From the NCBI GenBank assembly GCA_017551865.1, contig JAFZKB010000030.1, positions 1-64,000 of the forward strand: 64,000 nucleotides of DNA. The letters are read 5' to 3'. Under the pieces are notes generated by a model. It did not search any database, was not told where the DNA came from, and was given only the letters and a program-made list of their open reading frames with translations. This document shows, piece by piece, positions 7,021-40,471 of the stretch (within the stretch, counting starts at the first letter, position 1; each line of letters opens with the position of its first letter). The position numbers and the translations under genes were made by a program. Source of the DNA: Clostridiales bacterium (GTDB lineage Bacteria > Bacillota > Clostridia > Saccharofermentanales > Saccharofermentanaceae).

Positions 7021-7560
7021 TCATTTCCTGACCACCTTTTCGAAACGGAAATCCATTCCGGTGCCACCACAATCCTCTTTATCGGAATCCATATGCTCAT
7101 AAGGACCTTTATGGAAAGGATTAAAGAATTCCACTATATGAAACCCACACTTATTCACGTAGAAATGAATATTCCTAGTCTCAAAGTATGGGGTAAACGT
7201 TTCCCATATCTCAACTTCCGGGTGGAGTTTCTCTACTTCACACCAGGCACCATATCCTATTCCCTTGCTATGCACATCGGGTAATGTAAACAGAAGATCA
7301 AGAAAGCCTCTGCGCGTTTCAACATGTATTACAACGCCACCTGCAATCTGGCCATCACATACGATCCTATAAGCTTCTCCCTGATCAATACTGTCTTCGA
7401 TCGTCTTTCGCGAAATGATCTCGCCTTCTTCTTCCATCTGATCGTTACGCAATCCGAATTCCTCCATTGAACCATACTTAAAGGCCCATTGATTGTCTTT
7501 GATGAATTGCTCGCGGTCATCTGCATGTAAAGGGACCAGCACTACTTTTGTTTTATTCAT
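7021..7560 (-). CDS. GNAT-family N-acetyltransferase
   Basis: A 179-residue GNAT protein. The acetyl-CoA binding region is FTLPDVHSKGIGYGAW (motif A, with the Q/R-x-x-G-x-G/A pattern changed to SKGIGYG), followed by TRNIHFYVNKCGFHIVEFFN (motif B with the FY-x-x-GF signature). The acceptor substrate cannot be predicted. The start has AGGAGGAGAAA before ATG. It is the gene whose 5' leader holds the structured RNA and terminator at 7589-7722, so its expression is probably controlled by transcription attenuation. Confidence 0.85.
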   Translation of the reverse strand: MNKTKVVLVPLHADDREQFIKDNQWAFKYGSMEEFGLRNDQMEEEGEIISRKTIEDSIDQGEAYRIVCDGQIAGGVVIHVETRRGFLDLLFTLPDVHSKGIGYGAWCEVEKLHPEVEIWETFTPYFETRNIHFYVNKCGFHIVEFFNPFHKGPYEHMDSDKEDCGGTGMDFRFEKVVRK

Positions 7561-7588
7561 TTTCTCCTCCTATCTTCGCCGGAAATAC

Positions 7589-7620
7589 AAAAACCCGGCG
7601 ATGTAAAACATCTTTCCGGG
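7589..7620 (-). terminator. Intrinsic terminator in the GNAT leader
   Basis: Minus strand CCCGG with partner CCGGG, inner pairs GATGT/ACATC, then TTTTT. It lies 29 bases upstream of the GNAT start codon, inside the transcript leader rather than at the end of a gene, so it likely acts as a regulatory attenuator. Confidence 0.7.
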
Positions 7621-7722
7621 CTCACCCGACACCTTATCCGATAGGCGGCCTGCAGATATGAATCTGCGATCCCCTGTGCTACGGCACACTATCCTCCGGT
7701 GACCATTAATTCAATTGTTTGC
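7589..7722 (-). ncRNA. Structured leader RNA, riboswitch-like, upstream of a GNAT gene
   Basis: Between the -10 box at 7729-7734 and the GNAT start at 7560 the minus-strand transcript can form a nested fold. CACC (7698-7701) pairs with GGTG (7630-7633). GATAG (7689-7693) pairs with CTATC (7640-7644) and encloses two perfect hairpins: TGTGC-CGTA-GCACA (7675-7688) and GCAGAT-TCAT-ATCTGC (7652-7667). Single-stranded purine-rich joins separate them. An intrinsic terminator follows at 7589-7620. This is the layout of a riboswitch or attenuator. I could not match it to a known riboswitch class from memory. Confidence 0.6.
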
Positions 7723-7728
7723 GCTTTC

Positions 7729-7737
7729 TTTATACCA
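7729..7737 (-). promoter_or_regulatory. -10 region TGGTATAAA for the leader RNA and GNAT gene
   Basis: Minus strand TGGTATAAAG, an extended -10. It starts transcription about seven bases downstream, just ahead of the structured leader. It lies between the end of the Pat-like gene (7762) and the leader. Confidence 0.5.
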
Positions 7738-7761
7738 TCAATACTTGGAATTATCAACTAT

Positions 7762-8286
7762 TCAGAGTGTCTTCTGCATCCACAGAAGATCATACCAGCG
7801 ATCGAATTTCTTGCCGATTGCTTTCATATGCGCGACCTTCGCATATCCCATTCGATTATGGAAGTTATAACTGTCATGCGAAAGATACTCATCTTCAGGA
7901 TCGCAGAATGCCACTCCGGCAAGCAGATTCACAACACACTGAGCTTTTAGTCTTGCTTCAAGTTCTGCATAGAGGACAGCTCCAACTCCTTGTCTTCTGA
8001 AATCTTTATCCACATAAATCGATGTGGTGGCTGTCCAATCATACGCAGAACGAGAGCTGTAAGCCCCGGCATAGGCATATCCGAGGATCTTATTTCCCTG
8101 AACACAGACCAGATACGGGTACTTTCCGAGCGTTCCTTTGATTCTATCTCGAAAAGCACTTATGGTCGGTACTTCGTATTCAAAAGAAACCGCTGTGTTT
8201 AAAACATAATACGAGTAGATCTCGATAAGCCTTTCAGCATCTTCGATCTTGGCCTCACGAATAATATATTCTTTGCTCATTATCAT
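7762..8286 (-). CDS. Phosphinothricin N-acetyltransferase-like GNAT protein
   Basis: A 174-residue GNAT protein most like the Pat/YwnH subfamily, which acetylates phosphinothricin, methionine sulfoximine or similar amino acids. Typical features are YIIREAKIEDAERLIEIY at the N-terminus, SFEYEVPT, GYAYAG-ayssRSAYDWTATTSIYVD, RRQGVGAVLYAELE (acetyl-CoA loop) and NRMGYAKVAHMKAIGKKFDRWYD near the end. The start codon overlaps the stop of the upstream C_GCAxxG_C_C gene; ATG 8286 and ATG 8280 are both possible. Confidence 0.85.
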   Translation of the reverse strand: MIMSKEYIIREAKIEDAERLIEIYSYYVLNTAVSFEYEVPTISAFRDRIKGTLGKYPYLVCVQGNKILGYAYAGAYSSRSAYDWTATTSIYVDKDFRRQGVGAVLYAELEARLKAQCVVNLLAGVAFCDPEDEYLSHDSYNFHNRMGYAKVAHMKAIGKKFDRWYDLLWMQKTL

Positions 8287-8732
8287 AGATCTCCATTCTT
8301 AGCGATAATCTCTTCCAGTATATCGACAGCCTTTGCCACCATCTTCGGGCATAATTCAGTAAAGAGATGGTTATCTCGGGCGTATTGTCTACCTTGCAGC
8401 GTGCTGACATCGCAGCCGAGCAGGTCATTACAGATATAGGAACCGCACTTCTCGGCAAAGCGAAGCATCAATTCATCGTTCAATTCATCCGAACGCTGTC
8501 GGCCCTCAAGATCCCCGGCCTTGATCTGACCGTACAAAAGCCCAAGAACCATTAATGCTCCGGTACAGGCGCCGCACACTTCGCCCTTCCGCATTCCGGA
8601 ACCGAAACATGAGCCAAGTCTCAATGCCTGCTCTTCTGTAATACCGCATTCTGAGGCAAAAGCTGCCAGAACGGCCTGTGAACAGTGGAGATGCTCGCTA
8701 AAGTATTGTAGTGCTAAGTCCTTATGTGTCAT
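8283..8732 (-). CDS. C_GCAxxG_C_C family (putative redox) protein
   Basis: A 149-residue cytoplasmic protein of the C-GCAxxG-C-C family. Visible motifs are HCSQAVLAAF, GSCFGSGMRKGEVCGACTGALMVLG, CGSYICNDLLGCD and FTELCPKMV. The conserved cysteines are thought to bind a metal or perform redox chemistry; no reaction has been assigned. The start has GGAGAAGATTT before ATG. It overlaps the Pat-like gene by four bases, so the two are translationally coupled. Confidence 0.85.
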   Translation of the reverse strand: MTHKDLALQYFSEHLHCSQAVLAAFASECGITEEQALRLGSCFGSGMRKGEVCGACTGALMVLGLLYGQIKAGDLEGRQRSDELNDELMLRFAEKCGSYICNDLLGCDVSTLQGRQYARDNHLFTELCPKMVAKAVDILEEIIAKNGDL

Positions 8733-8763
8733 AAATCTTCTCCAATCATAATCTATATGTTGA

Positions 8764-8792
8764 TACTATCTCGAATCATTAGTGGAGACAAT
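8764..8792 (-). promoter_or_regulatory. Promoter TTGTCT-17-TAGTAT
   Basis: Minus strand -35 TTGTCT at 8787-8792 and -10 TAGTAT at 8764-8769 with a 17 bp spacer. It stands 32 bases before the start of the C_GCAxxG_C_C gene and should drive the two-gene unit with the Pat-like gene. Confidence 0.5.
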
Positions 8793-8835
8793 AGTTTAGC
8801 GGTAGCCTTATAGTTTAAATCGGCCCCCCAAAAAA

Positions 8836-8860
8836 GCATCCCAAAGAGTCTCCGAACTGC
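8836..8860 (-). terminator. Degenerate copy of the repeated terminator hairpin
   Basis: Minus strand GCAGTTCGGAGA-CTC-TTTGGGATGC then TTTTTT. It is alignable to the hairpins at 15621 and 22512 (shared GCAG-tCgGAGACTCT core) but has drifted to several wobble pairs. It follows the GNAT gene ending at 8880. Confidence 0.45.
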
Positions 8861-8879
8861 ATTCATATTTTCCGTTTAT

Positions 8880-9752
8880 TTATGCGTGTGACAGATCTGG
8901 AAAATACAGTTTGTCGCGCTCGATTGATTCAAGCTCAGTTCCCCTGTAGAACAGCCGATAATCGTCTCCTCCATCATACAGGGAGCAATCGCAGAGCTCC
9001 TTGTCTTCGTCTAAAGGAACAAAGCCGAGCCGCAATCTGTTCTCGACATCGATGCGCTTTAAGATTTCTGCAAGGCCGACCTTTTCCTTGCAAAGAACAG
9101 ATCCCAATACAGTGTCGCCGTCCTGCTCCTTCACGATGAAACAATCCAGATCAGACGAGTAGTAAACATTGTCCATTCCGGATGTGTAGAACATCTGAAG
9201 ACCGAACTTATTCATCTGTTCAAATGCCGAATACGGGCAGCTCAGACGCACGAGATCTTTGTACTTCTGTTTTATATCTTCGCCCATTTCGCTGACGGGC
9301 ATGAACAGCTCGCCTGCTTTTCCGCAGTTGAAGAATTCCTCTTTGACGAAGTACATGTACTGGTTCACGATGTCAAAGCCCATCTTCCTGTAAAAGCCTG
9401 TTGCGCTAAGGTTCCCGAAAAGATAGATGCCATCGCACTTGTCCTCATATTCCTTGTTGACGTGCTGCATCAGCTTTGCGGCAAGGCCCTGTCCCCTGTA
9501 GTTTTCATCGGTCATGACAGTGCCTAACTGAATGTAGTTTTTAATGACCCCGTTCTGCATGAACCTCATCTTATTAGCGGAAACATTAGATAGCATCACA
9601 CCGTTTTCCACCAGTGAATAGGGAATGTAATCCCCTTCAAAATATCCGTTTGTAACCCATCCTTCGAAATCAAATCCGAAAGTCTTTTGGGTCAAAGCAT
9701 TCAACATGTGACGTGATTCTTCGTCTCTCATGTAGTCGCTTATTAATTCCAT
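8880..9752 (-). CDS. GNAT-family N-acetyltransferase with C-terminal extension
   Basis: About 290 residues. The N-terminal 150 residues form the GNAT fold: QLGTVMTDENYRGQGLAAKL (beta4 plus the R-G-x-G-x-A acetyl-CoA loop) and GNLSATGFYRKMGFDIVNQY. A ~140-residue C-terminal region (LYDGGDDYRLFYRGTELESI) is not recognised and may resemble the sterol-carrier-like domain of Eis-type enzymes. The ATG at 9752 has AGGAG eight to nine bases upstream. It follows the frameshifted GNAT gene by 25 bp. Confidence 0.8.
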   Translation of the reverse strand: MELISDYMRDEESRHMLNALTQKTFGFDFEGWVTNGYFEGDYIPYSLVENGVMLSNVSANKMRFMQNGVIKNYIQLGTVMTDENYRGQGLAAKLMQHVNKEYEDKCDGIYLFGNLSATGFYRKMGFDIVNQYMYFVKEEFFNCGKAGELFMPVSEMGEDIKQKYKDLVRLSCPYSAFEQMNKFGLQMFYTSGMDNVYYSSDLDCFIVKEQDGDTVLGSVLCKEKVGLAEILKRIDVENRLRLGFVPLDEDKELCDCSLYDGGDDYRLFYRGTELESIERDKLYFPDLSHA

Positions 9753-9777
9753 AATCAATTCTCCTGCAGACTGTTTT

Positions 9778-10259
9778 CTATTTAACAGAAATATCCCTCA
9801 CATACATCAACTGTTTAAACTCACCGCCACGATTTATAAGACGGACCTTGTCTGTCAATTCAAAACCGCACTTCTCATAAAAAGCACACGCGTTATGGTT
9901 TGCCTCCAATACCAAAACACAAAGCGAAGATCGTTATATTCGGAGAGTATAAACTCTAGAACCTTGCGGCCAAATCCACGGCCTCTATACTCTTCCAGTA
10001 TATAGATACTGGCAATCTCAACCTCATCCCCATTCCTGACCAGCTTCACGATTCCGGCCGCCTGACCGTCCTCTTCTAAAAGCATATACACACAATCCTG
10101 GTCATCCAAAGAGCGGAGAAACTCTCCACGTCTGGATGCAGGCGAATCAGAATCTAGGTATTCTTGGCTGAAAATACCCTGATATGTCTGCCTCCACGCA
10201 TCAGAATGAACTTCTCCAATAACATCTGCATCTTCTTTTAATGCACGCCGTATAACCAT
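9778..10259 (-). pseudogene. GNAT N-acetyltransferase with single-base frameshift
   Basis: From the ATG at 10259 (GGCGGAGAGATT upstream) the frame runs MVIRRALKEDADVIGEVHSD through VEIASIYILEEYRGRGFGRK (acetyl-CoA loop) to SEYNDLR. There it shifts and would stop at 9855. In the next frame the expected end of the fold continues as VLVLEANHNACAFYEKCGFE and then KVRLINRGGEFKQL to a stop at 9778. Losing one base near 9928 explains both parts. The C-terminal motif B is therefore intact in sequence but unreadable. It is either a recent mutation or a sequencing error. Confidence 0.8.
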
Positions 10260-10357
10260 AATCTCTCCGCCACTTACTCCGGAATCTGAAACCCGCTTTT
10301 CCGGCAACCTCCGCCAGTTATTTTCTTGTTGCCTTTTCCATCCTTTCAGATCAAGAC

Positions 10358-10711
10358 TCACTGTGTAACAGCGGTATACACTTCTATATGATTCCCCTCG
10401 GAATCAACAAATTCCGCAACCCAGTTCTTGCCAATCTGCGTCAACGGAAAACATATCTCTTTTCCATCAAGTTTGGCTTTCATCATTTCCAGCGTATCAA
10501 AATGCAAACTCGGAAGACAGTTACTGCCATATACGTGTTTTTCATTTACCACTTTATATGCAAATAGGTTGAATCGAAAACCATCCACTTCAAAGCAGCT
10601 GCCGATTTCTCCTTTTTCCGATACTTCCTGTTCAAAGAATTCTTCATAAAACTTAATTGCACGATCCATATTATCGACACAAATATATAGTGAATCAATT
10701 TTGCAAAACAT
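10358..10711 (-). CDS. VOC-family (glyoxalase/bleomycin resistance-like) protein
   Basis: About 117 residues with two beta-alpha-beta-beta-beta repeats of the vicinal oxygen chelate fold: CKIDSLYICVDNMDRAIKFYEEFF and WVAEFVDSEGNHIEVY. The final Glu is at the usual metal-ligand position. The family includes glyoxalase I, dioxygenases, and fosfomycin/bleomycin resistance proteins; which applies is unknown. The start at 10711 follows AGGAAGAAGAG. It sits in the run of small-molecule-modifying enzymes. Confidence 0.8.
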   Translation of the reverse strand: MFCKIDSLYICVDNMDRAIKFYEEFFEQEVSEKGEIGSCFEVDGFRFNLFAYKVVNEKHVYGSNCLPSLHFDTLEMMKAKLDGKEICFPLTQIGKNWVAEFVDSEGNHIEVYTAVTQ

Positions 10712-27242: not shown

Positions 27243-29579
27243 TTATCGCTCAGCTATTAATGTCTTTGCTCTGTTCTGTATGTTCTTACACACATCGTCA
27301 AGGCTGCGCTGATCAAGGAAATAGGCCGGGGCTTCCTCGAGAATGATCGACATGACTCGCGGATCAGAATTTCTGACCACATGTACATTCTCGACCAGAT
27401 GGATCAGTAGTTCTTTTGTCTCTTTGGTGGCCACCAGAGGACGATACGGGTCTCCCTGAACCGGTTTCCAGTTTTTCATTTTCTCTTCGCCGATCGCAAT
27501 GATCCTGTCGCACTCTTTATCCAAAGCACTTCTGGATATCGGGATCTCGCTAACATCCAAAGATCCGGATTCTTCCTGCGTTTCCAGAAGGAATCGGAGA
27601 AAATCCCAAGCCTCGTCCTGACATAGAGAGTATTGGGAGATTCCGATCGTTCCGGTCGTATCAACCGCGATACTTCCGCCCTTAAAACTCGGGACTCCGC
27701 AGAAAACGGTATCCTCTCCATAGTTTTTTTGAAAGTCTGCCATATCGATAATTTTATAGATCCGCATGGGACACCATGCAAGCATCCCATTCACAAACAG
27801 TTCGCGGGGATCATAATCATTGAACTCACCATGTTCTCTTTTCTCAACACCATATTTCTTAACAAATGCCAGAATTTCCTTGAAAGAATCGTCTTCGAAA
27901 CGTACTTCCTTCGTCTCATAATCGATGAGTTCTTCTCCCGTTTCACTCAAGACCCATTCCAGAAGAGTCGCGTATTCCGTTTTTTCCATCACGCTCACAT
28001 CCGATGGAAGCTTATCCATCTCTTTGTTGAATTCTTCGAAAGTCCAGGATCGTTCCGCACCGACCAGATCCGGATTTCCTGCCAGGCATCTAAGTTCAAA
28101 GGATAACGGCATGTGATAGAGTTTCCCGCCTGTTTCCTGCGCACGGATCACATTATCAAAATACTTGCTGCGGTCCAGAGCTTTTTCATCTGAAGCATCA
28201 AAGTAAGTATTAAGATCGACACAGACCTTTTCCGAATTGAACTGTGAGAACCGGGCAAAGTTTATAAGGATGTCCGGACCATTTCCGGAGATAACATCCA
28301 GATAGATCTTATCGATCAGCTCCGCTTTCTTGTTCATATTGTCACTTTCCGAAGTGATATCCAGCGCGTAATTATGTACGGCGATCCTGCACTTCGCATC
28401 GGGACTCGTATTATATGAAATGACCTCTTCCAAATTGATCGAATCGTATCCCGCCGCGGTCAGAAGTTTCTTTCCCGCATAAGGATTCTTCTCCGCTTTT
28501 GTCGCATGAGTAATATAGACACGGCTGTATGATTCATATGTGATCTCGTCATATTCTTCCGTTTTGTTCCAAAAGACAAACTCTTCGTCTGAAATCGCCT
28601 TGAGGGTTCCATTAAATACCGGGTTATAGTCCGTATCGCTCCAGGAAAGCACCTCGATATCTTTCGACGCATCTATTAAGTCGACCTTCATAATTCCGTT
28701 TGCATTCAACAGGTAATTTCCGTTATCGGATTTGATTGGCAAGTCCATGTGGGGATCCCTGATCTTCTCACCTACAAGATCCAGCGTATCGACATTTAGT
28801 TCCTGAAAACACCTAAAGCTTCTTTCGGAGGGCTCATCAGATACCTTATAGCAGAGCGCATAGCATTTGCCCTGCTGATAGTACACCACTCCGACAAAAC
28901 CAACGTCATCGAAACGCTTGCTTTTTAGAACTTTTCCATCTTTGTCGAGTACGGTAATGATCCCGTAAGAAGAGCAGACCATCCTGCCATTCGGAAGAAG
29001 CACTACATCACTGGCAATTACATCGTCCAAAGCCATGACCTGTTCCATACTTCCGTCATCTCGGACCTTCTCCAGGAAGCACCCCTGCGGCGTATTCATG
29101 ATCGCCATCGTTTCTCCTTTTTCGTTTACAAAAGAAGCTTTCGTCTGATTATTGTACCCATCTTCATCTGCGCCGAAATCAACATCAGTCATACGAAGAA
29201 GGTTACCCTGAAGGTCGAAAAATGCCGATTTTGCGAACCGGTATTCCTTGTCTATAGCATAGTACTCATCCCACTTATCCTCAGAAATGAGTTCTTGTAC
29301 CTTCTCATTGAGTTCTTCCGGCATTTTATATTTGAATTCGCAGGTCATCGAAATAGTATTTCCGATGAAACAGATCGATTCGTTTTCGATCCAAAGCGAC
29401 TGTAATTCTTTTGACTCATCTACGGGAATCCGGCATTCCACTTCTTCTACATCAAAAAACGGATCGGTTTCCGAAATAATATGAGCCCCCGTCTTTGGGG
29501 ACTTTTTACATCCTGCAGCCCCCATAATAAGAGATAGGATCAAAGTGATTGCCATTGACTGTTGATACAGTTTTCTCAT
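27243..29579 (-). CDS. Large lipoprotein: N-terminal propeller-like region plus solute-binding-protein domain
   Basis: About 778 residues from the ATG at 29579 (GAGGATTCATCAG upstream). The signal peptide ends at LIMGAAGC. Residues ~40-370 are beta-rich with repeated strand-turn units (FFDLQGNLLRMTDVDFG, GNYLLNANGIMKVDLID), suggestive of a beta-propeller. Residues ~400-770 match family 1 extracellular solute-binding proteins (SGNGPDILINFARFSQFN, KYFDNVIRAQETGGKLYHMPL, GTIGISQYSLCQDEAWDFLRFLLET). No permease or ATPase gene is adjacent. It is a paralogue of the lipoprotein at 32383-34806, sharing an EE-PAYFL-Q C-terminal helix. Confidence 0.75.
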   Translation of the reverse strand: MRKLYQQSMAITLILSLIMGAAGCKKSPKTGAHIISETDPFFDVEEVECRIPVDESKELQSLWIENESICFIGNTISMTCEFKYKMPEELNEKVQELISEDKWDEYYAIDKEYRFAKSAFFDLQGNLLRMTDVDFGADEDGYNNQTKASFVNEKGETMAIMNTPQGCFLEKVRDDGSMEQVMALDDVIASDVVLLPNGRMVCSSYGIITVLDKDGKVLKSKRFDDVGFVGVVYYQQGKCYALCYKVSDEPSERSFRCFQELNVDTLDLVGEKIRDPHMDLPIKSDNGNYLLNANGIMKVDLIDASKDIEVLSWSDTDYNPVFNGTLKAISDEEFVFWNKTEEYDEITYESYSRVYITHATKAEKNPYAGKKLLTAAGYDSINLEEVISYNTSPDAKCRIAVHNYALDITSESDNMNKKAELIDKIYLDVISGNGPDILINFARFSQFNSEKVCVDLNTYFDASDEKALDRSKYFDNVIRAQETGGKLYHMPLSFELRCLAGNPDLVGAERSWTFEEFNKEMDKLPSDVSVMEKTEYATLLEWVLSETGEELIDYETKEVRFEDDSFKEILAFVKKYGVEKREHGEFNDYDPRELFVNGMLAWCPMRIYKIIDMADFQKNYGEDTVFCGVPSFKGGSIAVDTTGTIGISQYSLCQDEAWDFLRFLLETQEESGSLDVSEIPISRSALDKECDRIIAIGEEKMKNWKPVQGDPYRPLVATKETKELLIHLVENVHVVRNSDPRVMSIILEEAPAYFLDQRSLDDVCKNIQNRAKTLIAER

Positions 29580-29605
29580 CTGATGAATCCTCACTAAACC
29601 GGTAT

Positions 29606-31368: not shown

Positions 31369-31686
31369 ATGAAAGATAATGTCAAAAGCGGAGCACTTAC
31401 AGAGGTTACGTTCTTTATACTGCTGTCTTTATACGAGCCGAAACACGGATATGCCATCATGCAGTTCATTGATGAAAAAACATCCGGAAGACTTCTGCTC
31501 GGAGCCGGTTCACTTTACGGGGCGATCAATACGCTGACCGAAAAGGGCTGGATCAAACCGTACGGAGATTCGGACGGAAGAAAAAAGGAATACGTGATCA
31601 CCGCGGAAGGTCGAAGGATCGCAGAAAAAGAACTGCGAAGACTGCGGGAACTGACTAAAACCGCGGAAACGATCATAGAATCATGA
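31369..31686 (+). CDS. PadR-family transcriptional regulator
   Basis: 105 residues with the PadR winged helix: GALTEVTFFILLSLYEPKHGYAIMQFID, then SLYGAINTLTEKGWI (recognition helix and wing) and REYVITAEGRRIAEKEL-like end. PadR proteins repress a neighbouring membrane or transport gene until a ligand binds. GAGGGAAGATC precedes the ATG. The gene partner is the DUF2812 protein 21 bases downstream. Confidence 0.9.
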   Translation: MKDNVKSGALTEVTFFILLSLYEPKHGYAIMQFIDEKTSGRLLLGAGSLYGAINTLTEKGWIKPYGDSDGRKKEYVITAEGRRIAEKELRRLRELTKTAETIIES

Positions 31687-31707
31687 GACCAGGAGGCATT
31701 GGGAAAA

Positions 31708-32307
31708 ATGAGTATAGTTAAAAGAAGGTATTTTGCGGGCTTTATGGGAAGTCAAACAAGATGGCTGAACAAAATGGCAGATAATGGATACAGACTGGCA
31801 GAGACAGGCAAGCTTAAGTATGTATTCGAAAAGTGCGAGAGCGGAAAATACATATACACCGTCGAATTTGTGGGCGACAGATCTTTGGAAGAAGAAGAAA
31901 AATATAAATCCTTCCTGGAAGATCTGGGATACCGGGTCTTCTACAAAAACATGCATCTGGATTATTCTTTAAATAAGCTGGTCATTCGTCCCTGGGCGGA
32001 TAAAGGTGGAAGGATCTCCACTACCCGCTCGACATATAACAAAGAGCTGCTGATCGTGGAAAAGGAAAACGACGGAAGACCGTTCGAGCTTCATACGGAA
32101 AAAGAGGACCGGATCAAGTATTATCGAGGGATGATCAAACCTTACTACTATGCTTTCGTATTTGCTCTGATCCTGGCGTTTGTATTCTGGCCGGACCGAA
32201 TCAAAACTGCGATCTGCGGGGGCGTGGCGCTGCTGGTCACTATACCTGCCGCCATTATCGGATCTAAGATCCTTAAACTAAAGAAAGAAAAAACAGTTGA
32301 GGAATAA
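31708..32307 (+). CDS. DUF2812 membrane protein
   Basis: About 199 residues from the ATG at 31708 (AGGAGG eleven bases upstream). The N-terminal ~110 residues are the soluble DUF2812 domain (MGSQTRWLNKMADNGYRL, YTVEFVGDRSLEEEEKY, YKNMHLDYSLNKLVIRPW). Two TM helices follow (YYYAFVFALILAFVFW and AICGGVALLVTIPAAIIG), with a basic end. PadR-DUF2812 pairs are common in Clostridia and Bacilli; the function is thought to be envelope-stress or drug related but is not established. Confidence 0.85.
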   Translation: MSIVKRRYFAGFMGSQTRWLNKMADNGYRLAETGKLKYVFEKCESGKYIYTVEFVGDRSLEEEEKYKSFLEDLGYRVFYKNMHLDYSLNKLVIRPWADKGGRISTTRSTYNKELLIVEKENDGRPFELHTEKEDRIKYYRGMIKPYYYAFVFALILAFVFWPDRIKTAICGGVALLVTIPAAIIGSKILKLKKEKTVEE

Positions 32308-32330: not shown

Positions 32331-32363
32331 AAAAAAGGAAGCCATAAAAGGCTTCCTTTTTTT
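32331..32363 (+). terminator. Terminator of the PadR/DUF2812 operon
   Basis: Stem GGAAGCC / GGCTTCC (extended by A-T pairs) with loop ATAAAA, then TTTTTTT. The A-run on the left side lets it act also for the minus-strand lipoprotein gene ending at 32383. Confidence 0.85.
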
Positions 32364-32382
32364 ATCCAACCCCAGTCAAATG

Positions 32383-34806
32383 TCACGTGCCTCTTTCGTT
32401 CAGGACTGTCTGCACTCTGTCCGTAATGATCTTGATCACCGAAGGAAGATCCTTCTGCCCGAGGAAATATGCCGGCATCTCTTCGATCAGGATCATATCG
32501 ATCGATGGATCTGCGGAATCATAATGAGAACAGCTCAATATGATCTTCTCAAATTCCGCCATATCAGCTTTAGTAAAATCGATCCTTCTTACGTCAGGCT
32601 CGGGAAACCCACCAATATATGAAATAAAGTCATTTTCCGCCTTAGGACTATTGGCATATTCCAAAACATAATCTGCAATTTCTCGAAATGCCGTACGATT
32701 TACAGGGATTCCTTCTATATCCGCCATCTTCGACTGCACCTCATCAGAAAGGAGGGTCCTTACAAATTCTGCACAGGCATCAACATCGGGAGCTTGGGAG
32801 GACACAGCGATCGAGCAGATGGATTCGATCTGTGGACCGCGCCCGTCTGTGGATGGGATCCCTAAAACCGCCTTCGCACCTTTAAGTGCATTGATCCCGT
32901 TAAGATAATCTTTCGGGCTTCTATAGGTCGAATAAAGAGCTATGCGGCTGTTGATGTCGCTGGCGGCATTTGCATCTTCCGAGCCGAATTCAGGCGCCTT
33001 CTCCGGAATATTTTTCTTCACATAGTCTGCGAGTTCAGCAAATTCAGGGCCTGAGAAATCCGCCTTTCCATTTACGATGAATTTGTCTCTCATCCCGTTA
33101 AACAGCGTGGTAAAATACAATGCCTGTCCCGAAGTGATCAGATCAAAGCCGCTCAATGTATCATAAAGGAATTCTTCGTACTCTTTGGTCGTAAATCCCT
33201 GACCGGATGCACCTGCATTCTTCGCATCGGTATGTATACCTTTGATTCCGAAAGTAACAGGCACCTGATAGAGCTTCCCGTCTGTCTTCGCCGCCTCAAA
33301 AATATTCGCAAAGTACTTTGCCGGATCAAGATCACTGAAATACTTGCTTAAGTCAACAAGATAGTTCGAATAACTGAGTCTGCCCATGTCACCACTTAGT
33401 AGCAGGATATCCGGACCGGAACCACTTAGGATGTCCATGGCGAGACTGTCGTTAAGCACCAGATTCGCCTGAAGCATATCATTATCAACATCATCCTGAC
33501 TCTCCGTAGGCAAATTGGTCCTTACCGTATCGATCGTATACCGGCCGGTTACTTCAATGAAGTAACTCCTATTTTTCTCATTAAACTCGAGTATCGCTTC
33601 TGCGACCGGATGATTAACATACCCGTTGGCAGCGTATAGTTCAAGCAGCGTTTTCCCTGCATGCGGGTTTTCCTTAGCCTTCGAAAGAACATAAATATCA
33701 AAGCCGGTCTTTGAAACACCTCTTGAGGAGATCATGCCATAACAGCCTCCAAGCAGGATCACTTTTCCGTCATAGCAATCCACCAGTTCCGTATCGTTGA
33801 GAAGTGTGTGATTGATCGAACATGCATCGTAGTTAAAAAACTCTTCGACTCTCTTATTCTTCATGTCGATCTTTGAAATACCGTCAGATGTTGGAAAATA
33901 CGTCTGACAATCTTTATCGATATGTTCTTTATGGATCTCTTTAAAATCGATCCAGTCATACTCCTTGCCATCCGCTTCGACCGCTTTTGCATTTTTCAGA
34001 TCCACTTCAAAATGAACAGGGACATTCGCCGATGTTTGAGTAATCGTAAACAGTATTTTTTCTTCAGACAAGGTCAGAACAACAGCAGAACCGGAAAGAT
34101 TTGTTTTCTCTTTTTTCAATTCCACCTGGCTCTCTTTTCCTTCGGAATCAGTGATTGTAAGAAGGTAATAATCGGCATACGCTTCTAAGTCATGCATATT
34201 TTCAGCCATAACCATGTATTTCCCTATTCCGATTCTTTTCCTGTCATAGGTAAAGTCATCAGAATAGCTCACCGGGCGTTTCTCGAGCACTTCACCTGTC
34301 AGGACATCAGTTTCTATCTCTACATCGGAACTTCCATAATCAAAACTCCAGTTTTGTACTGCCGAAGTGATTCTGCCATTTTCATACGAAACATCAGTAA
34401 TGGTTCCGTCGCCTTCCAGGTAATCCTGCAGATCCACGGTACGGATCTTTTCTCCCGTATTTCTGTCGACTACGGTAGCAAGACAATATTCGTGATCTCT
34501 AACGCTATACTCCGTATCAAAATTCGATTGAAAAAAGTATCCTCTTGTGAACACCACAATATATTTATCATCCGTGCCAACCAGACTATGCTCTCTGAAA
34601 ACGATTTCTTTTCCTTTGGTATCCAAATCAGGCTCAATACTGTAGATCTTTGTGTCAAACCAGGGATCTTCCGAAGTGATCGTCCGATGCGTCTGCCCAC
34701 TATTACCCGTTTTTTCAGATGCTTTCTTTCCGCATGAAGTGAGCGTTAAGAGTATAGTAAATACCAGTGCCATAGATAGCACTTTTTCAAAGCTTGTACG
34801 TCTCAT
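32383..34806 (-). CDS. Large lipoprotein: N-terminal propeller-like region plus solute-binding-protein domain
   Basis: 807 residues, paralogous to the protein at 27243-29579. The lipobox is LLTLTSC. Residues ~45-390 are beta-rich (YFFQSNFDTEYSVRDHEYC, SDGISKIDMKNKRVEEFF). Residues ~420-800 resemble extracellular solute-binding proteins (LSGSGPDILLLSGDMGRL, KYFANIFEAAKTDGKLYQVPV, DACAEFVRTLLSDEVQSKM). No transporter genes are nearby. It is the last gene of a probable four-gene unit: ECF sigma, DUF4179, 507-residue lipoprotein, this protein. Confidence 0.75.
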   Translation of the reverse strand: MRRTSFEKVLSMALVFTILLTLTSCGKKASEKTGNSGQTHRTITSEDPWFDTKIYSIEPDLDTKGKEIVFREHSLVGTDDKYIVVFTRGYFFQSNFDTEYSVRDHEYCLATVVDRNTGEKIRTVDLQDYLEGDGTITDVSYENGRITSAVQNWSFDYGSSDVEIETDVLTGEVLEKRPVSYSDDFTYDRKRIGIGKYMVMAENMHDLEAYADYYLLTITDSEGKESQVELKKEKTNLSGSAVVLTLSEEKILFTITQTSANVPVHFEVDLKNAKAVEADGKEYDWIDFKEIHKEHIDKDCQTYFPTSDGISKIDMKNKRVEEFFNYDACSINHTLLNDTELVDCYDGKVILLGGCYGMISSRGVSKTGFDIYVLSKAKENPHAGKTLLELYAANGYVNHPVAEAILEFNEKNRSYFIEVTGRYTIDTVRTNLPTESQDDVDNDMLQANLVLNDSLAMDILSGSGPDILLLSGDMGRLSYSNYLVDLSKYFSDLDPAKYFANIFEAAKTDGKLYQVPVTFGIKGIHTDAKNAGASGQGFTTKEYEEFLYDTLSGFDLITSGQALYFTTLFNGMRDKFIVNGKADFSGPEFAELADYVKKNIPEKAPEFGSEDANAASDINSRIALYSTYRSPKDYLNGINALKGAKAVLGIPSTDGRGPQIESICSIAVSSQAPDVDACAEFVRTLLSDEVQSKMADIEGIPVNRTAFREIADYVLEYANSPKAENDFISYIGGFPEPDVRRIDFTKADMAEFEKIILSCSHYDSADPSIDMILIEEMPAYFLGQKDLPSVIKIITDRVQTVLNERGT

Positions 34807-34861
34807 ATTCTTCTTTCCTTATGTGTTTATAGGATTTTCCGGAATCAGTTACGTTCACGTA

Positions 34862-36385
34862 TCATTTACTATACGTCTCCCATTGTTCTTTCGCCGTACG
34901 TAAGTATTCCTCCATACCGTCCTCTGCCAGGATTTTAGAATATTTTTCTAAAGCTTCATCCAAAGAAAGAGTATTCAGACTGGCCAGAAAATCATTAATG
35001 TCATCAGGGATCTTACTATTAGCCGGCAGATCCGCTGCAAATCCGAGGAACGGCGATAGTACTGCATTTTTAATGGAAGCTAAGTAAGCTTCTTTTTCAC
35101 TATCCCTTAACCCTTCTTCCTCACCTTCGGCCATAACAGGATAAGTATTTAAATATGTCCCAAGACAAACCCGTTTAAAGAAAACATCAGTATAATCCGA
35201 TCCGTCCAAATTGACCACACAGCCGTCAACGAGCTTATAATCTACATCCTGCTTTCCATAAATAAGCAGATTGGCATATTTCCCTTCGTTATAAAGAATT
35301 CCGAGAAAATCCATCACAGCATTGACATCTTCTGTCTTACTTGAAATAGCGATGGAGCCATTCAGATTCGTCTTTAGCACTGGATCCAATTCCTTGATTC
35401 GGAAGTTCTCTTTTTCAAGAGTTTTTCGGGGTTCACCAGCAGAAAGCACCACGAGGAATTTCCCTTCTTCCAGATCTTTTTCAGATACCGGATAGGTGCT
35501 ATTACACTGATAGGATACATTCTTCCAAAGGAAACCTTCACTTTTCATCTGTTCGAGTAATCTCAGATATCCGATAAGCTTTTCCGACTCCAGTGGATTC
35601 TTTATTTCCCTGGTGTCATACTCATAAAGCAATCCGTCCTTGATCTCACAGCCGATCATCAGATCAAAGTCATAATCGGTGAGAAAATACTGAAAGGGAT
35701 TTACACTTTCCTCTTTCCACTCGGCATTTTTGATGATCTCATAAATACCTTCAAGACTTCCGTCCCAGTTATCGATCACTTCATCAGATATGTAGTCTCT
35801 GTTAAATGCAGCATAAATACCAGTCATACGCTTACAGTGAGGAGTAAACGGCAGGCTATAGAAATGTCCTTTACACTTTACACGTGACCAAATTGTTTCC
35901 GGGAAAGCTTCGTAAACCTTTTTCCCGTTACCAGATGAAAGTATATCATCAAGCTGAAGTATCAATCCTTTATCGATATAATTGAACATATTCCCGCCGG
36001 CTTCATCCAGGCCCAAAAATGCCACATCTACATTTCCGTCTTTCAATTCTTTTTCAAGAAGAGATCCATATTCGCCATACTGCAGAGATTTCACCTCCAG
36101 CTGATAGTTATACCCGTCTTTTAATAGTTCTTCATTAAATTCCAGTAAATGAAGATCTTCTGCATGACACAGCGTAGGAACGGCGAAGGTGATCGTCTTA
36201 ACATTCGGATCTACCGTAGTTTGACCGCTCTGCTCAGAGGATCCGGCCGCTACTGCATCTGATCCAGAAAGAGCCGTATTCTCTATCGTAGGGTCAGAAG
36301 ATGGCTCCGATTTCTTTGATCTGCTGCAGGACGTCATCCCCAAAAGGGCGCAAGCAACTAATAAAAAGCTTACAAATCTTTTCAT
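34862..36385 (-). CDS. Solute-binding-protein-like lipoprotein
   Basis: 507 residues. The signal peptide ends at LLGMTSC, followed by a Ser-rich linker. The mature part has the periplasmic-binding-protein layout: KTITFAVPTLCHAEDLHLLEF, LKDGNVDVAFLGLDEAGGNM, FYSLPFTPHCKRMTGIYAAF, and a late NAVMDFLGILYNEGKYANLL. It lacks the N-terminal propeller-like region of its two neighbours. It follows the DUF4179 gene by 35 bp, so it is likely under the same ECF sigma factor. Ligand unknown. Confidence 0.7.
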   Translation of the reverse strand: MKRFVSFLLVACALLGMTSCSRSKKSEPSSDPTIENTALSGSDAVAAGSSEQSGQTTVDPNVKTITFAVPTLCHAEDLHLLEFNEELLKDGYNYQLEVKSLQYGEYGSLLEKELKDGNVDVAFLGLDEAGGNMFNYIDKGLILQLDDILSSGNGKKVYEAFPETIWSRVKCKGHFYSLPFTPHCKRMTGIYAAFNRDYISDEVIDNWDGSLEGIYEIIKNAEWKEESVNPFQYFLTDYDFDLMIGCEIKDGLLYEYDTREIKNPLESEKLIGYLRLLEQMKSEGFLWKNVSYQCNSTYPVSEKDLEEGKFLVVLSAGEPRKTLEKENFRIKELDPVLKTNLNGSIAISSKTEDVNAVMDFLGILYNEGKYANLLIYGKQDVDYKLVDGCVVNLDGSDYTDVFFKRVCLGTYLNTYPVMAEGEEEGLRDSEKEAYLASIKNAVLSPFLGFAADLPANSKIPDDINDFLASLNTLSLDEALEKYSKILAEDGMEEYLRTAKEQWETYSK

Positions 36386-36420
36386 AAAAACACCTCTTTA
36401 TCTAATTTTTTTCAGTAGTT

Positions 36421-37380
36421 TTATTCTGCCAAGTAAGGCACTCCATTGATCTCTACACCGCTAATGTTATCCACATTAAAAGCAGTGCCGATATTCATTC
36501 TGAAATAACCCGTTCCAAATTCGCCTGACACACTTATGTTTACATCATCCAGATCCGTTTCTACCCGGCCGTCCATTTGATGCGTAAAGATATTCACACG
36601 TTCACCATCTGTCGATATGTATACAAGGCTGGATATGGATTCCGGCTGACCGTTCTTCGGATCATCAGAGGTCTCATCGTAAACGCTCAACCCATAGGGG
36701 GAAAGTGTGATCTCCTTTCCGTCCGGCGAACGAAGCACTTTGGTAGGAACATTCGGCTCAGAAAGAACATCAAAGCAGATCCCCTCGTAATATGTGTAGT
36801 CTTCCTCTACTTCAGCCCCGTAATAACAGTGGTACTTACCAGTTGGAACATCTTCAAAGAACTCGAACCTTGCCGGATGAGAAGTAACCGGAATGACGAA
36901 GCGCCATGTAACCTCTTCATCACTGATAAGATCCGGGGTAGAGTCTCCTGAAAAGCCGATACGGTCACCGGTAACGGTGTCCACACATCGTTCGACTATA
37001 TTTTCCAGATGTTTTTTTGCTTCATCTGTCAGCGCCGTCACTGTCCAGACTCCCTCTGTGAAATTACCGTCACAGATCTGAACATCTACGGTCAGTCGGA
37101 AAAAGTCGTTTTCTACTGTAAATTCACCGTCGGCCAGATTATCCTCGATCATCTTTACGCCTTCTCCGCCGTATAAGATGCTTACCTTATCATGGTGTAT
37201 AAGTTTCTTTGCTGCATATACACCGATGGGGACCATTAAAGCGACAGCGGCAGCTACCAAAAGCCCGGTGCTGATCCTTTTGCGGATGCTTACGACACGG
37301 CTCGCGGTATAATTCTGGTATTCGTTGACAAATCGTTCGTCAATGTTACCGGTGATCTTTAAATATTCACGTTCGTTCAT
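36421..37380 (-). CDS. DUF4179-type putative anti-sigma factor
   Basis: 319 residues. A ~40-residue cytoplasmic N-terminus (DERFVNEYQNYTASRVVSIRKR) precedes one TM helix (STGLLVAAAVALMVPIGVYAA). The large outer domain contains the DUF4179-like beta sandwich (FRLTVDVQICDGNFTEGVW, SSLVYISTDGERVNIFTHQM). The gene overlaps the ECF sigma gene by four bases (ATGA), the normal arrangement for a sigma and its membrane anti-sigma factor. Confidence 0.8.
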   Translation of the reverse strand: MNEREYLKITGNIDERFVNEYQNYTASRVVSIRKRISTGLLVAAAVALMVPIGVYAAKKLIHHDKVSILYGGEGVKMIEDNLADGEFTVENDFFRLTVDVQICDGNFTEGVWTVTALTDEAKKHLENIVERCVDTVTGDRIGFSGDSTPDLISDEEVTWRFVIPVTSHPARFEFFEDVPTGKYHCYYGAEVEEDYTYYEGICFDVLSEPNVPTKVLRSPDGKEITLSPYGLSVYDETSDDPKNGQPESISSLVYISTDGERVNIFTHQMDGRVETDLDDVNISVSGEFGTGYFRMNIGTAFNVDNISGVEINGVPYLAE

Positions 37381-37940
37381 AGCACCCCATCCTTTCCATC
37401 AATATACTTTCTTAATCCTTCCCTCATCCGGTGAAGCATCGTCTTGACTTTACTTTGAGAAAAACCCGTCTTTTTTGAAATACTCTCGATCGATTCATTG
37501 AACCAGTACCGTCCGACGAATACGGCGCGTTTATCCGACGTCAGCGTAGAAAGATATTCATTGATATATTCACCGAGTTCTTCACTTCTTTCGTCGGAGA
37601 TGCTGCTCTGGTCAGGAATACATTCATTCATTTCCGCCGTCAGTTCCACGATCTGCGCGGAACGCTTCTGCGCAGTATTTTTCTTAATGACATCCATCGC
37701 CGCATTACGGCAGAGTGCCGCAAGATAAGCAAACAGATTATTGGGACGATTCGGCGGTATGGAGTTCCACGCACGTACATAGGTGTCGTTTACACATTCC
37801 TCCGCATCTCTTCTGTCAGAAAGAAATCTAAGGGAAAAACGCAGCAGTTTTTCATTATAGTATTTCATTGTTTCACTGATCGCATCTTCATCTCTTGCCA
37901 GATAAAGATCGACAATGACGGAATCAGCCATTTTCTTCAT
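37377..37940 (-). CDS. ECF-type RNA polymerase sigma factor
   Basis: About 187 residues. Region 2 is visible at LRFSLRFLSDRRDAEECVNDTYVRAWNSIPP with the variant NLFAYLAALCRNAAMDVIKK. Region 4 is at EYLSTLTSDKRAVFVGRYWFNESIESISKKTGFSQSKVK (helix-turn-helix). It directs RNA polymerase to promoters of an envelope- or signal-responsive regulon. The start may be ATG 37940 or 37931. A candidate ECF promoter lies just upstream at 37968-37993. Confidence 0.9.
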   Translation of the reverse strand: MKKMADSVIVDLYLARDEDAISETMKYYNEKLLRFSLRFLSDRRDAEECVNDTYVRAWNSIPPNRPNNLFAYLAALCRNAAMDVIKKNTAQKRSAQIVELTAEMNECIPDQSSISDERSEELGEYINEYLSTLTSDKRAVFVGRYWFNESIESISKKTGFSQSKVKTMLHRMREGLRKYIDGKDGVL

Positions 37941-37967
37941 CACATCCCAGTCTCTCTTTCCCTAAAA

Positions 37968-37993
37968 GTAGAAATCCGCACCGAAAAGGTTAC
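37968..37993 (-). promoter_or_regulatory. Candidate ECF-type promoter (GTAACC-15-TCTAC)
   Basis: The minus strand has GTGTAACC at -35 (AAC core) and TCTAC at -10 with a 15 bp spacer, about 28 bases before the sigma gene. The AAC-containing -35 is typical for ECF sigma factors, so autoregulation is likely (inference). Confidence 0.4.
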
Positions 37994-38011
37994 ACTTTTC
38001 ACGAAAATAAT

Positions 38012-38238: not shown

Positions 38239-38335
38239 TATTAGTGTTAGATATTTCTACAGTTTCTTTGTTTCTGCACATAAAAATCAATGATACTATA
38301 TATTTGTGAAAGAAGTTTTAGGGAGGAATTGGTTT

Positions 38336-40471
38336 ATGAAAAAAAGTGTGTGTGCAGGTATTTTATCAACCGTTATTCTTATCACCTTATCCGGGATCTT
38401 TCTTTTCCCGAAGGAAAAGGTTCGTGCGGAAGTCCAAACAAAGACAGATGATACGTATGTCGAGGTGAATGAATCGAATTTTCCAAATGAAGTCTTCCGG
38501 GACTGGGTAAGAAAAAAAGCGGATAGCAATCATGATGACCGCCTTTCCTCTTATGAGATCTCAAGAGTTACATCACTTTATCTTTCTGATGAGAAACTCA
38601 CTTCTTTGAAAGGAATCGAATTCTTTACTTCTCTAAAGACCATATCCTGCAGATATTCGAGTCTCACTTCACTCGATATCAGTGCACTTACGGAGTTGAA
38701 AACGATTGATCTTCTGCAGAACAAGCTGACCACACTGGATACAAGCAATAATACCAAATTGGAGGATCTTTCCGTAAGCTTCAATGATGTCACCTCTTTA
38801 GACCTGACCTATAACACCGCTTTGATCAAACTCGATTGCAGCGTCAATCATCTGACCTCTCTCGAAGTTTCCAACTGCACAAACTTAAAAGAAATCTGGT
38901 GCACCAACAACCGCATTTCCAATTTGGATCTAACGAACAACCCAAATATCGAAGTCTTACACGTATATGCCAACAAACTGTCAAAAATAGAAGTAGGGCA
39001 TCTTGCAAATCTGAGCGTCCTGGATGTAGCGAGCAACAATATGTCCGAACTCGTTATAAGCAAAAACACGAATCTGCAGACCTTGTACTGTGATAAGAAT
39101 CAGTTTTCTTCTTTGGACCTGACAAAGAACACCAATCTAAAAAATCTGGAATGTGCGTCGAACCAGCTTACTTCTCTGGACCTGACAAAGAACACCAATC
39201 TAAAAAAACTGGTTTGTGCGTCGAACCAGCTTTCTTCCATTGATTTATCGAAGAATACCGAATTACTGTATCTGGATTGCCACTCCAATCCCCTGAAGGA
39301 GTTGAATCTTTCCGAATGTACGAAACTGACAGATCTTGAATGTTATGATAATGGTCTTTCGACGCTGGATCTCAAGAATAATCTTGCTCTTGGAAGGATG
39401 GATTGCAGTTATAACCAGCTTCAATCCCTTGATCTGTCGTCTAACACTTCTCTTCTGGTTTTAGACTGTAGCAGCAATCCATTCAAAACACTCGATATGT
39501 CCTCCGTTCCTTCACTTCAAGCACTGATATGCAAGTCGTGCAATATGGAACAACTGGTAGTAACAAATAACAAGGAGCTTTTATTCCTGGATTGTTCCAA
39601 GAATAATCTTTCCGATCTGGATATCACCAAAAACGAAAAACTTACCTATCTGATCTGTTCTTCTAACAAGATAACAAAGCTGGATCTTAGAAACAGCTTC
39701 GAGATCGGCCGGATAGAGTGCAAGGGTAATAAATTCACTGAACTGAATATCATGAACTGCCCGAATATTCTTAAAGCACTCACTTCAGGAGAAGTCCAAA
39801 ACTTCACTGTAAGCATAAAAATTCCCTCAGCCTCCAAACTCAGTTACTGGTCAAAGGAAATGGGGATAGACTATGATAAACAATCTGTTACTCTCATCCA
39901 TTTGCCGGAGCCGCCGGCACCGATGAGCGGTCTTTATGCCGAAGCATCCGGAAAAGGAAAGGTCAAGCTCACCTGGAGTGCTTCCGAAGGAGCCGAAGGA
40001 TATCTGATCTACGCACAGAAGAATAAGAAGTACGCTTACGTCGGCATGACCACAAAGGGTACGACCTTTACGGATACCAAAGCACTTTCCGACGATTACA
40101 ACTATTACTGGGTATTTCCTTATAGCACCAATGCGATCGGTCAGATGAACCCCGGAAAATGCCAGAAGTATGTATACGCCAAAGGTGTTTGCGTAGCGCC
40201 TTCCGGGTTGAAAGCCTCATCCGTAAAAGGCGGAGTAAAACTTACATGGAATGCGGTAGCGGATGCAGAAGGTTATCTGGTGTACGGCATCGTGGATGGA
40301 AGACCTTACGGCTATGTCGGTATGACCACAAAAGGTACGACCTTTACGGACAAGACCGCTTCCGCCACGAATTATAACTACTACTGGGTCTGCGCATACT
40401 TCAAGAATCAGGACGGGAAAGTGATCCCGGGTCTTTTCCCGAAGTATACATACGGAAGAGCACTGAAATGA
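38336..40471 (+). CDS. Secreted leucine-rich repeat protein with two C-terminal Fn3-like domains
   Basis: 711 residues from the ATG at 38336 (GGGAGGAATTGGTTT upstream). After a signal peptide (KKSVCAGILSTVILITLSG) come a short cap (FPNEVFRDWVRKKADSNHDD) and about 18-20 LRR units of ~21 residues with consensus L-x-x-L-x-C-x-x-N-x-L-x-x-L-D-L-x-x-N-T, residues ~80-500. Two Fn3-like domains of ~90 residues end the protein (VKLTWSASEGAEGYLIYAQ and VKLTWNAVADAEGYLVYGI). No sortase or anchor motif is visible, so it is probably secreted or loosely bound. It resembles internalin-like adhesins of Firmicutes. It converges on the GT8-PlsC gene. Confidence 0.85.
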   Translation: MKKSVCAGILSTVILITLSGIFLFPKEKVRAEVQTKTDDTYVEVNESNFPNEVFRDWVRKKADSNHDDRLSSYEISRVTSLYLSDEKLTSLKGIEFFTSLKTISCRYSSLTSLDISALTELKTIDLLQNKLTTLDTSNNTKLEDLSVSFNDVTSLDLTYNTALIKLDCSVNHLTSLEVSNCTNLKEIWCTNNRISNLDLTNNPNIEVLHVYANKLSKIEVGHLANLSVLDVASNNMSELVISKNTNLQTLYCDKNQFSSLDLTKNTNLKNLECASNQLTSLDLTKNTNLKKLVCASNQLSSIDLSKNTELLYLDCHSNPLKELNLSECTKLTDLECYDNGLSTLDLKNNLALGRMDCSYNQLQSLDLSSNTSLLVLDCSSNPFKTLDMSSVPSLQALICKSCNMEQLVVTNNKELLFLDCSKNNLSDLDITKNEKLTYLICSSNKITKLDLRNSFEIGRIECKGNKFTELNIMNCPNILKALTSGEVQNFTVSIKIPSASKLSYWSKEMGIDYDKQSVTLIHLPEPPAPMSGLYAEASGKGKVKLTWSASEGAEGYLIYAQKNKKYAYVGMTTKGTTFTDTKALSDDYNYYWVFPYSTNAIGQMNPGKCQKYVYAKGVCVAPSGLKASSVKGGVKLTWNAVADAEGYLVYGIVDGRPYGYVGMTTKGTTFTDKTASATNYNYYWVCAYFKNQDGKVIPGLFPKYTYGRALK
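39108..39233 (+). repeat. Near-identical tandem 63 bp LRR units
   Basis: Two consecutive 63 bp units (39108-39170 and 39171-39233) differ at only a few positions, while the other LRR units are much more diverged. They encode LDLTKNTNLKxLxCASNQL twice, so one repeat was duplicated recently. Confidence 0.85.

Follow-up and report, generated by a model that had tools for sequence, protein, structure and literature searches.

Why would a sigma factor operon carry two solute-binding proteins (SBPs) and no transporter? The question is raised by a four-gene operon of a Clostridiales bacterium from the Saccharofermentanaceae (assembly GCA_017551865.1, the source genome), located in the first 64,000 nucleotides of contig JAFZKB010000030.1 (hereafter the window). 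There, an extracytoplasmic function (ECF) sigma factor and a DUF4179-type anti-sigma factor are followed by two SBP-like lipoproteins of 507 and 807 residues (lip507 and lip807). A first-pass annotation, made from the sequence alone, had proposed that these lipoproteins capture a ligand and signal through the anti-sigma factor instead of feeding a transporter. Our comparison across 115 genomes of the family suggests that the lipoproteins probably detect something extracellular rather than import it, and we lean modestly towards the operon being a self-contained surface-sensing module in which the SBP lipoproteins form the ligand-binding front end of a sigma/anti-sigma switch. Because close relatives of lip807 are linked to BlaI and M56 receptor genes, or fused to the receptors themselves, the SBP family can be read as a source of extracellular sensors that are interchangeable between two unrelated membrane switches, of which the window operon would represent the sigma version.

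A closed sigma factor operon without a permease

The operon is a closed unit on the minus strand (window 32331-37994), in which promoter, sigma, anti-sigma, lip507, lip807 and terminator follow one another. The gaps between successive genes are -4, 35 and 55 nt, bearing out the gene calls, coordinates and close same-strand spacing of the first-pass annotation, and the ATG of the anti-sigma gene overlaps the stop codon of the sigma gene. Sigma-70 regions 2 and 4 are both present in the sigma factor, which is listed from a GTG, although translation may really begin a few codons further in. The terminator, read straight from the sequence and missed by a simple scanner, stands directly 3' of the 807 gene and closes the unit. 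With no permease or ATPase gene in the four-gene operon and a terminator after the 807 gene, we rejected the operon as an ABC (ATP-binding cassette) importer.

The candidate ECF promoter proposed at first pass, TGTAACC-N15-TCTAC, is conserved in the aligned regions upstream of sigma in relatives, and an exact scan of the 115 genomes found it in 19 of the 20 that bear the anti-sigma gene. The source genome holds a single exact site, and a scan relaxed to three or fewer mismatches returned 11 sites there versus 16 for a reversed control pattern, hence no excess. Under this motif the putative target of the sigma factor is therefore its own operon only, and a wider regulon was rejected. Promoter-like sites also occur in genomes without a listed anti-sigma: in G095 the site lies at a contig edge, whereas a promoter relic without sigma in G054 (L217) and a promoter with a truncated sigma gene in G085 (L220) form a decay series of the sigma operon.

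The anti-sigma factor of the source genome has no Pfam match itself, but its DUF4179 assignment is upheld by its relatives. It aligns over its full length with a set of 19 orthologues. DUF4179 is matched by 17 of these, with a best E of 5.2e-7 and one match above the curated cut-off; in the six orthologues scanned singly the match lies at residues 32-115. Its AlphaFold model (pLDDT 73.0) has 3fbq as its best and sole significant match in the PDB (E 2.7e-5), at 13% identity and template modelling (TM) scores of 0.34-0.37. Its transmembrane helix ends on the outer side in a signal-peptidase-like V/I-x-A motif, in which A56 is present in 19/19 orthologues, as is V or I at position 54.

Both lipoproteins proved to be SBP-like, as had been proposed. 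A profile of lip507 (A2) matches three solved SBPs, PDB 5swa, 5suo and 5mlt, at 3.8e-17 to 4.9e-17. In lip807, a lipobox-like LTSC lies at residue 25, its Cys invariant among 39 aligned sequences, and the model is confident (pLDDT 85.6, pTM 0.84). The closest solved structure to its SBP domain, by both sequence and fold, is CbpC of Clostridium thermocellum (7x0o; Z 23.3, rmsd 4.5, 370 aligned residues, 20% identity). The propeller also ascribed to lip807 at first pass can be kept only as a likelihood: the model has an N-terminal all-beta domain that is probably a propeller, the fold-match list covering residues 384-807 only. When lip507 and lip807 were compared for homology, their signal peptides alone aligned.

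The absence of permeases extends beyond the window. None was found in any sigma locus read across the genomes, a result that agrees with the first-pass annotation, for which a permease in the same operon elsewhere would have spoken against signalling. The local profiles used for permeases were built from those of the source genome, and the narrower one missed Opp-like permeases in loci L127 and L135. The source genome encodes 27 near-full-length (>=600 aa) lip807-family proteins and three fragments, along with nine permease domains over the Pfam cut-off and two below it; none of the nine lies in an operon with a lip807-family paralog. Permeases near lip807-family arrays in L080 and L084 belong to an ABC_tran/TOBE_2 plus BPD_transp_1 set (Pfam), which we take to be of Pot type, and in L080 an opposite-strand gene separates this set from the lipoprotein array. 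Permeases are lacking across the whole paralogous family in this lineage, and their lack is thus not specific to the window operon; what strengthens the signalling idea is the association of relatives with M56 receptors and BlaI.

Proposed exchange of lipoproteins between sigma operons and M56 receptors

The anti-sigma gene was detected in 20 of the 115 genomes, lip507 in 13 and a match to lip807 in 108. Nineteen sigma loci were readable, the anti-sigma of G023 being a fragment at a contig edge. Directly behind the anti-sigma gene, on the same strand and mostly within ~100 nt, 13 of these 19 loci carry an SBP lipoprotein. The 13 loci span two genera and comprise at least two lipoprotein clades and two or three cargo types: lip507 with lip807 (G000, G098, G109, G111, G113 and, across a contig break, G112), lip507 alone (G105), or a lipoprotein of the 785 type (G103, G104, G106, G107, G013 and G009), which in G103 is followed by a second lipoprotein of 773 aa. 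The exact four-gene order, whose recurrence in other Clostridia had been suggested as a check on the sensing idea, is thus found in 6/115 genomes, one of them being the contig-break case; it recurs, but it is rare because the lipoprotein cargo is exchanged.

The other large genus also has six genomes in which the 507/807 pair occurs without an adjoining sigma gene. In such sigma-free copies, a small secreted protein of ~130 aa, which may be a partner or a ligand, is encoded upstream of lip507; the two examples tested had no Pfam match. The 807 genes linked to sigma cluster in a single group (Shimodaira-Hasegawa-like approximate likelihood ratio test, SH-aLRT, 95), leaving repeated co-recruitment of the pair unsupported, and the 507 tree did not resolve. 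The paralogs of the source genome hint at an origin of the pair in the other genus, but we do not claim it, the outside rows having been chosen as best matches to lip807. Relatives with a stated source come from rumen or other ruminant-gut Clostridia and are nearly all metagenome-assembled; the set also includes an isolate, Ruminococcaceae bacterium AB4001, which has a sigma/anti-sigma pair.

The 785 type connects the sigma operons with a second signalling system. Of its 11 strong matches, spread over 10 of the 23 genomes of the genus to which the source genome belongs, four lie in sigma operons; all seven other copies are the third gene of a BlaI-M56-lipoprotein operon, including the copy in the source genome (contig C22, L116). 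The source genome contains a second such operon, arranged BlaI-M56-lipoprotein-lipoprotein (L126), and a further lipoprotein gene upstream of a BlaI-M56 pair (L130). A weak resemblance (hhalign probability 75, 157 columns) exists between the N-terminal domain of lip807 and the outer domain of the M56 proteins encoded in the BlaI-M56-785 operons.

Elsewhere in the family the association is a covalent one. A family-wide scan with a 1081-aa G013 protein as query returned, among the matches listed, M56 proteins fused in frame to a lip807-type domain. We read 16 such fusions, drawn from 12 genomes that all belong to the other genus, with three of the fusions truncated at contig ends; the sample is non-random, as long-looking frames were chosen and a 395-aa contig-edge piece in G080 was left out. 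All 16 have BlaI 1-2 nt upstream and an HExxH motif, with M56 identity taken from Pfam runs on two of them. All 16 also carry a lipobox-like Cys downstream of the last membrane helix, and lipidation or cleavage of the sensor part is thus conceivable.

On a 49-row tree of lipoproteins and fusions, the fusions require at least four label changes. The 785 clade (100/100) mixes sigma-linked, BlaI-linked and fused members, and each of its 16 rows is attached to one such system, while the 773-aa lipoprotein encoded second in the G103 sigma operon groups next to another clade of fusions (99/94). Pairwise comparison of eight of the 16 fusions gave, between classes, 51-73% identity for the M56 halves and 27-35% for the SBP halves; in the G072 and G052 fusions the values are 70% versus 31%. 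This combination of conserved M56 halves with unlike SBP halves is the pattern expected for sensor-domain swapping on a constant receptor. We tentatively propose, with somewhat more doubt than belief, that in this lineage of rumen Clostridia lipoproteins made of an all-beta domain and a CbpC-like SBP domain are plug-in sensors exchanged between BlaI/BlaR1-type M56 receptors and ECF sigma/DUF4179 pairs, and that BlaR1-type receptors may carry solute sensors, beyond antibiotics.

Proposed mechanism and comparison with known systems

In the mechanism that we envisage, the DUF4179 anti-sigma factor would hold the ECF sigma factor at the membrane, while lip507 and lip807 would bind an extracellular, probably carbohydrate-like, ligand. 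Ligand-loaded lipoproteins would engage the outer domain of the anti-sigma factor, which may expose the membrane-proximal V-x-A site to signal peptidase, as in RsiV, and intramembrane proteolysis would then release the sigma factor. Once freed, sigma would transcribe its own operon only and so yield more sensor, a potential positive feedback. The role of the V-x-A motif is suggested by analogy with RsiV, in which the signal peptidase site lies in the DUF4179 region (PMC6066255).

The RsiV/sigma-V system of Bacillus subtilis (DUF4179, ECF30) resembles the window operon in its ECF sigma factor, its single-pass DUF4179 anti-sigma factor, its autoregulated operon and a membrane helix with a signal-peptidase-like motif at its outer end. 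However, RsiV senses lysozyme via a domain of its own, DUF3298, whereas the window operon encodes SBP lipoproteins. DUF3298 was absent among the Pfam matches of the 19 anti-sigma factors, and we therefore do not class the anti-sigma factor as an RsiV. The SigI-RsgI system of Clostridium thermocellum, which senses polysaccharides, is similar in outline, coupling an extracellular carbohydrate-type domain to an anti-sigma factor. There the binding domain lies within the anti-sigma factor, while the window operon has a separate lipoprotein and an anti-sigma factor of another family; neither the RsgI N-terminal domain nor a carbohydrate-binding module was among the Pfam matches of the 19 anti-sigma factors.

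The structure 3fbq is the outer domain of BAS1627, a DUF4179 anti-sigma factor of Bacillus anthracis (PMC6066255). As the best fold match of the window anti-sigma model, BAS1627 is likewise of DUF4179 type but differs in the low identity and TM scores given above. We know of no link between BAS1627 and an SBP lipoprotein. CbpC, although the nearest structure to the lip807 SBP domain, is an ABC transporter component and lacks the N-terminal all-beta domain.

The BlaR1/MecR1-BlaI systems are matched by the relatives of lip807 rather than by the window operon, which contains neither M56 nor BlaI. These relatives either form one protein with an M56 receptor or are encoded after it, BlaI lying upstream, and occupy the sensor position of BlaR1, whose sensor is the C-terminal extracellular domain (PMC7593790). 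Their sensor differs in consisting of an SBP and an all-beta domain and not a penicillin-binding domain.

DUF4179 anti-sigma factors, BlaR1 receptors and SBPs are each known already, and it is their combination that appears to be new: in the limited literature searched, we found no paper joining the three and nothing relevant on SBPs together with ECF/anti-sigma pairs, with beta-propellers or with BlaR1/M56. If the sensing interpretation is correct, BlaR1-type receptors extend beyond antibiotic sensing, DUF4179 anti-sigma factors outside Bacillus can take signals via separate lipoproteins, and a function emerges for a very large SBP family without permeases, whose members annotation pipelines would label as transport proteins. 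Given the in-frame M56 fusions, the sensor hypothesis could be put to a direct test with a single recombinant protein.

Evidence against sensing and alternative explanations

Several observations weigh against a sensing role for the window lipoproteins. Six of the 19 sigma loci have no SBP cargo (G094, G073, G070, G008, G021 and G089), and in two of these, G008 and G021, a BlaI and an M56 gene follow in its place. Within the lip807 clade of the window, 7 of 13 members are without a sigma gene, and the clade was never fused or BlaI-linked among the loci read. In the stretches fetched from the source genome, 22 of the 27 near-full-length paralogs have no BlaI, M56 or sigma neighbor; these may act in trans or have another role. 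The outer domain of the anti-sigma factor shows no resemblance to the M56 outer domain, and in a test for RsiV-type shielding the amphipathicity of the helix after its membrane segment was not above that of shuffled sequences. Finally, CbpC, the closest solved SBP, is reported to have bound none of the tested sugars and to have a blocked pocket (PMC9601137).

The main rival is that the lipoproteins are solely an output: the outer domain of the anti-sigma factor would sense a stress or ligand alone, and sigma would raise the amount of the surface lipoproteins, which would act as scavengers, decoys or adhesins. We consider this unlikely, but a serious contender, for which the unfused state of the window lip807 clade and the many paralogs without a signalling neighbor leave room. 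The lipoprotein genes come last in an operon driven by sigma, the cargo varies between genomes as is common for outputs, most paralogs in the source genome are solitary, and RsiV itself detects lysozyme via its own outer domain (PMC6066255). An output role sits poorly, however, with the in-frame fusion of the same lipoprotein type to an M56 receptor, at the sensor position of BlaR1 (PMC7593790), repeatedly on the tree.

Alternatively, the lipoproteins could be orphan SBPs serving an ABC importer encoded elsewhere, with the sigma operon merely adjusting their dose. SBPs without linked permeases exist, the SBP folds are sound and the source genome has several permease pairs elsewhere. Yet 27 near-full-length paralogs face nine permease domains over the cut-off, none in a shared operon, and neither the sizeable all-beta domain at the N-terminus nor fusion to M56 suits transport, making this explanation quite improbable. 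A chance neighborhood of an ECF pair and members of a very large lipoprotein family is disfavored as very improbable, for although one close pair is unsurprising in a 2.7 Mb genome with ~20 sigma-like places and 27 members of the family, a terminator closes the unit and an SBP lipoprotein of one of at least two clades recurs directly behind the anti-sigma gene, on the same strand, in 13/19 loci of two genera.

Feature coordinates and neighboring genes

Table 1. Features of the window operon and of related loci. Positions refer to the window unless preceded by a locus label (L).
Feature	Position	Strand	Basis
ECF autoregulatory promoter (candidate), TGTAACC-N15-TCTAC	37968..37994	-	Aligned upstream regions; exact scan, 115 genomes
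ECF sigma factor, 188 aa	37377..37943	-	Sigma70_r2 2.2e-8, Sigma70_r4_2 1.2e-8; TIGR02937 2.9e-21
Anti-sigma factor, 319 aa, DUF4179-type, one transmembrane helix, beta-rich outer domain	36421..37380	-	Orthologue alignment, Pfam, model
V54-Y-A56, signal-peptidase-like V/I-x-A motif, outer end of transmembrane helix	37213..37221	-	Anti-sigma orthologue alignment
lip507, 507-aa SBP lipoprotein	34862..36385	-	Lipobox-like GMTSC; SBP_bac_1 0.0028; profile matches
lip807, 807-aa lipoprotein, N-terminal all-beta domain and C-terminal SBP	32383..34806	-	SBP_bac_8 4.1e-10; model
lip807 all-beta domain, probably a propeller, ~residues 50-380	33667..34659	-	Strand pattern of model
lip807 SBP domain, ~residues 386-805	32392..33651	-	Fold match 7x0o; profile match E 1.5e-17
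Intrinsic terminator, operon end	32331..32363	both directions	Perfect inverted repeat, flanking A and T runs
M56/lip807-type fusions behind BlaI	L081:3064-6309 and 7260-10544; L266-L278		
~130-aa secreted protein	L073; L076:5066-5449; L077:5705-6103; L223:7364-7762; L224:1169-1567		

Tandem arrays of lip807 paralogs lie directly after rpsG-fusA-tuf-like genes in L080, L082 and L083, an unusual and probably highly expressed position; the rpsG-fusA-tuf genes were recognized by size and order, with a Pfam check in L080 only. In the window, a second lip807-family lipoprotein of 783 aa (27243-29594) is encoded ~2.8 kb beyond the operon end, flanked by an ACT-domain gene and a nucleotidyltransferase-like gene. 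Divergent from sigma is a gene for a 721-aa surface-type protein with 11 LRR_4 stretches (38306-40471), which does not adjoin sigma in the nearest relative, G098. On the other side, a PadR regulator gene and then a DUF2812 protein gene (31369-32307) converge on the operon terminator.

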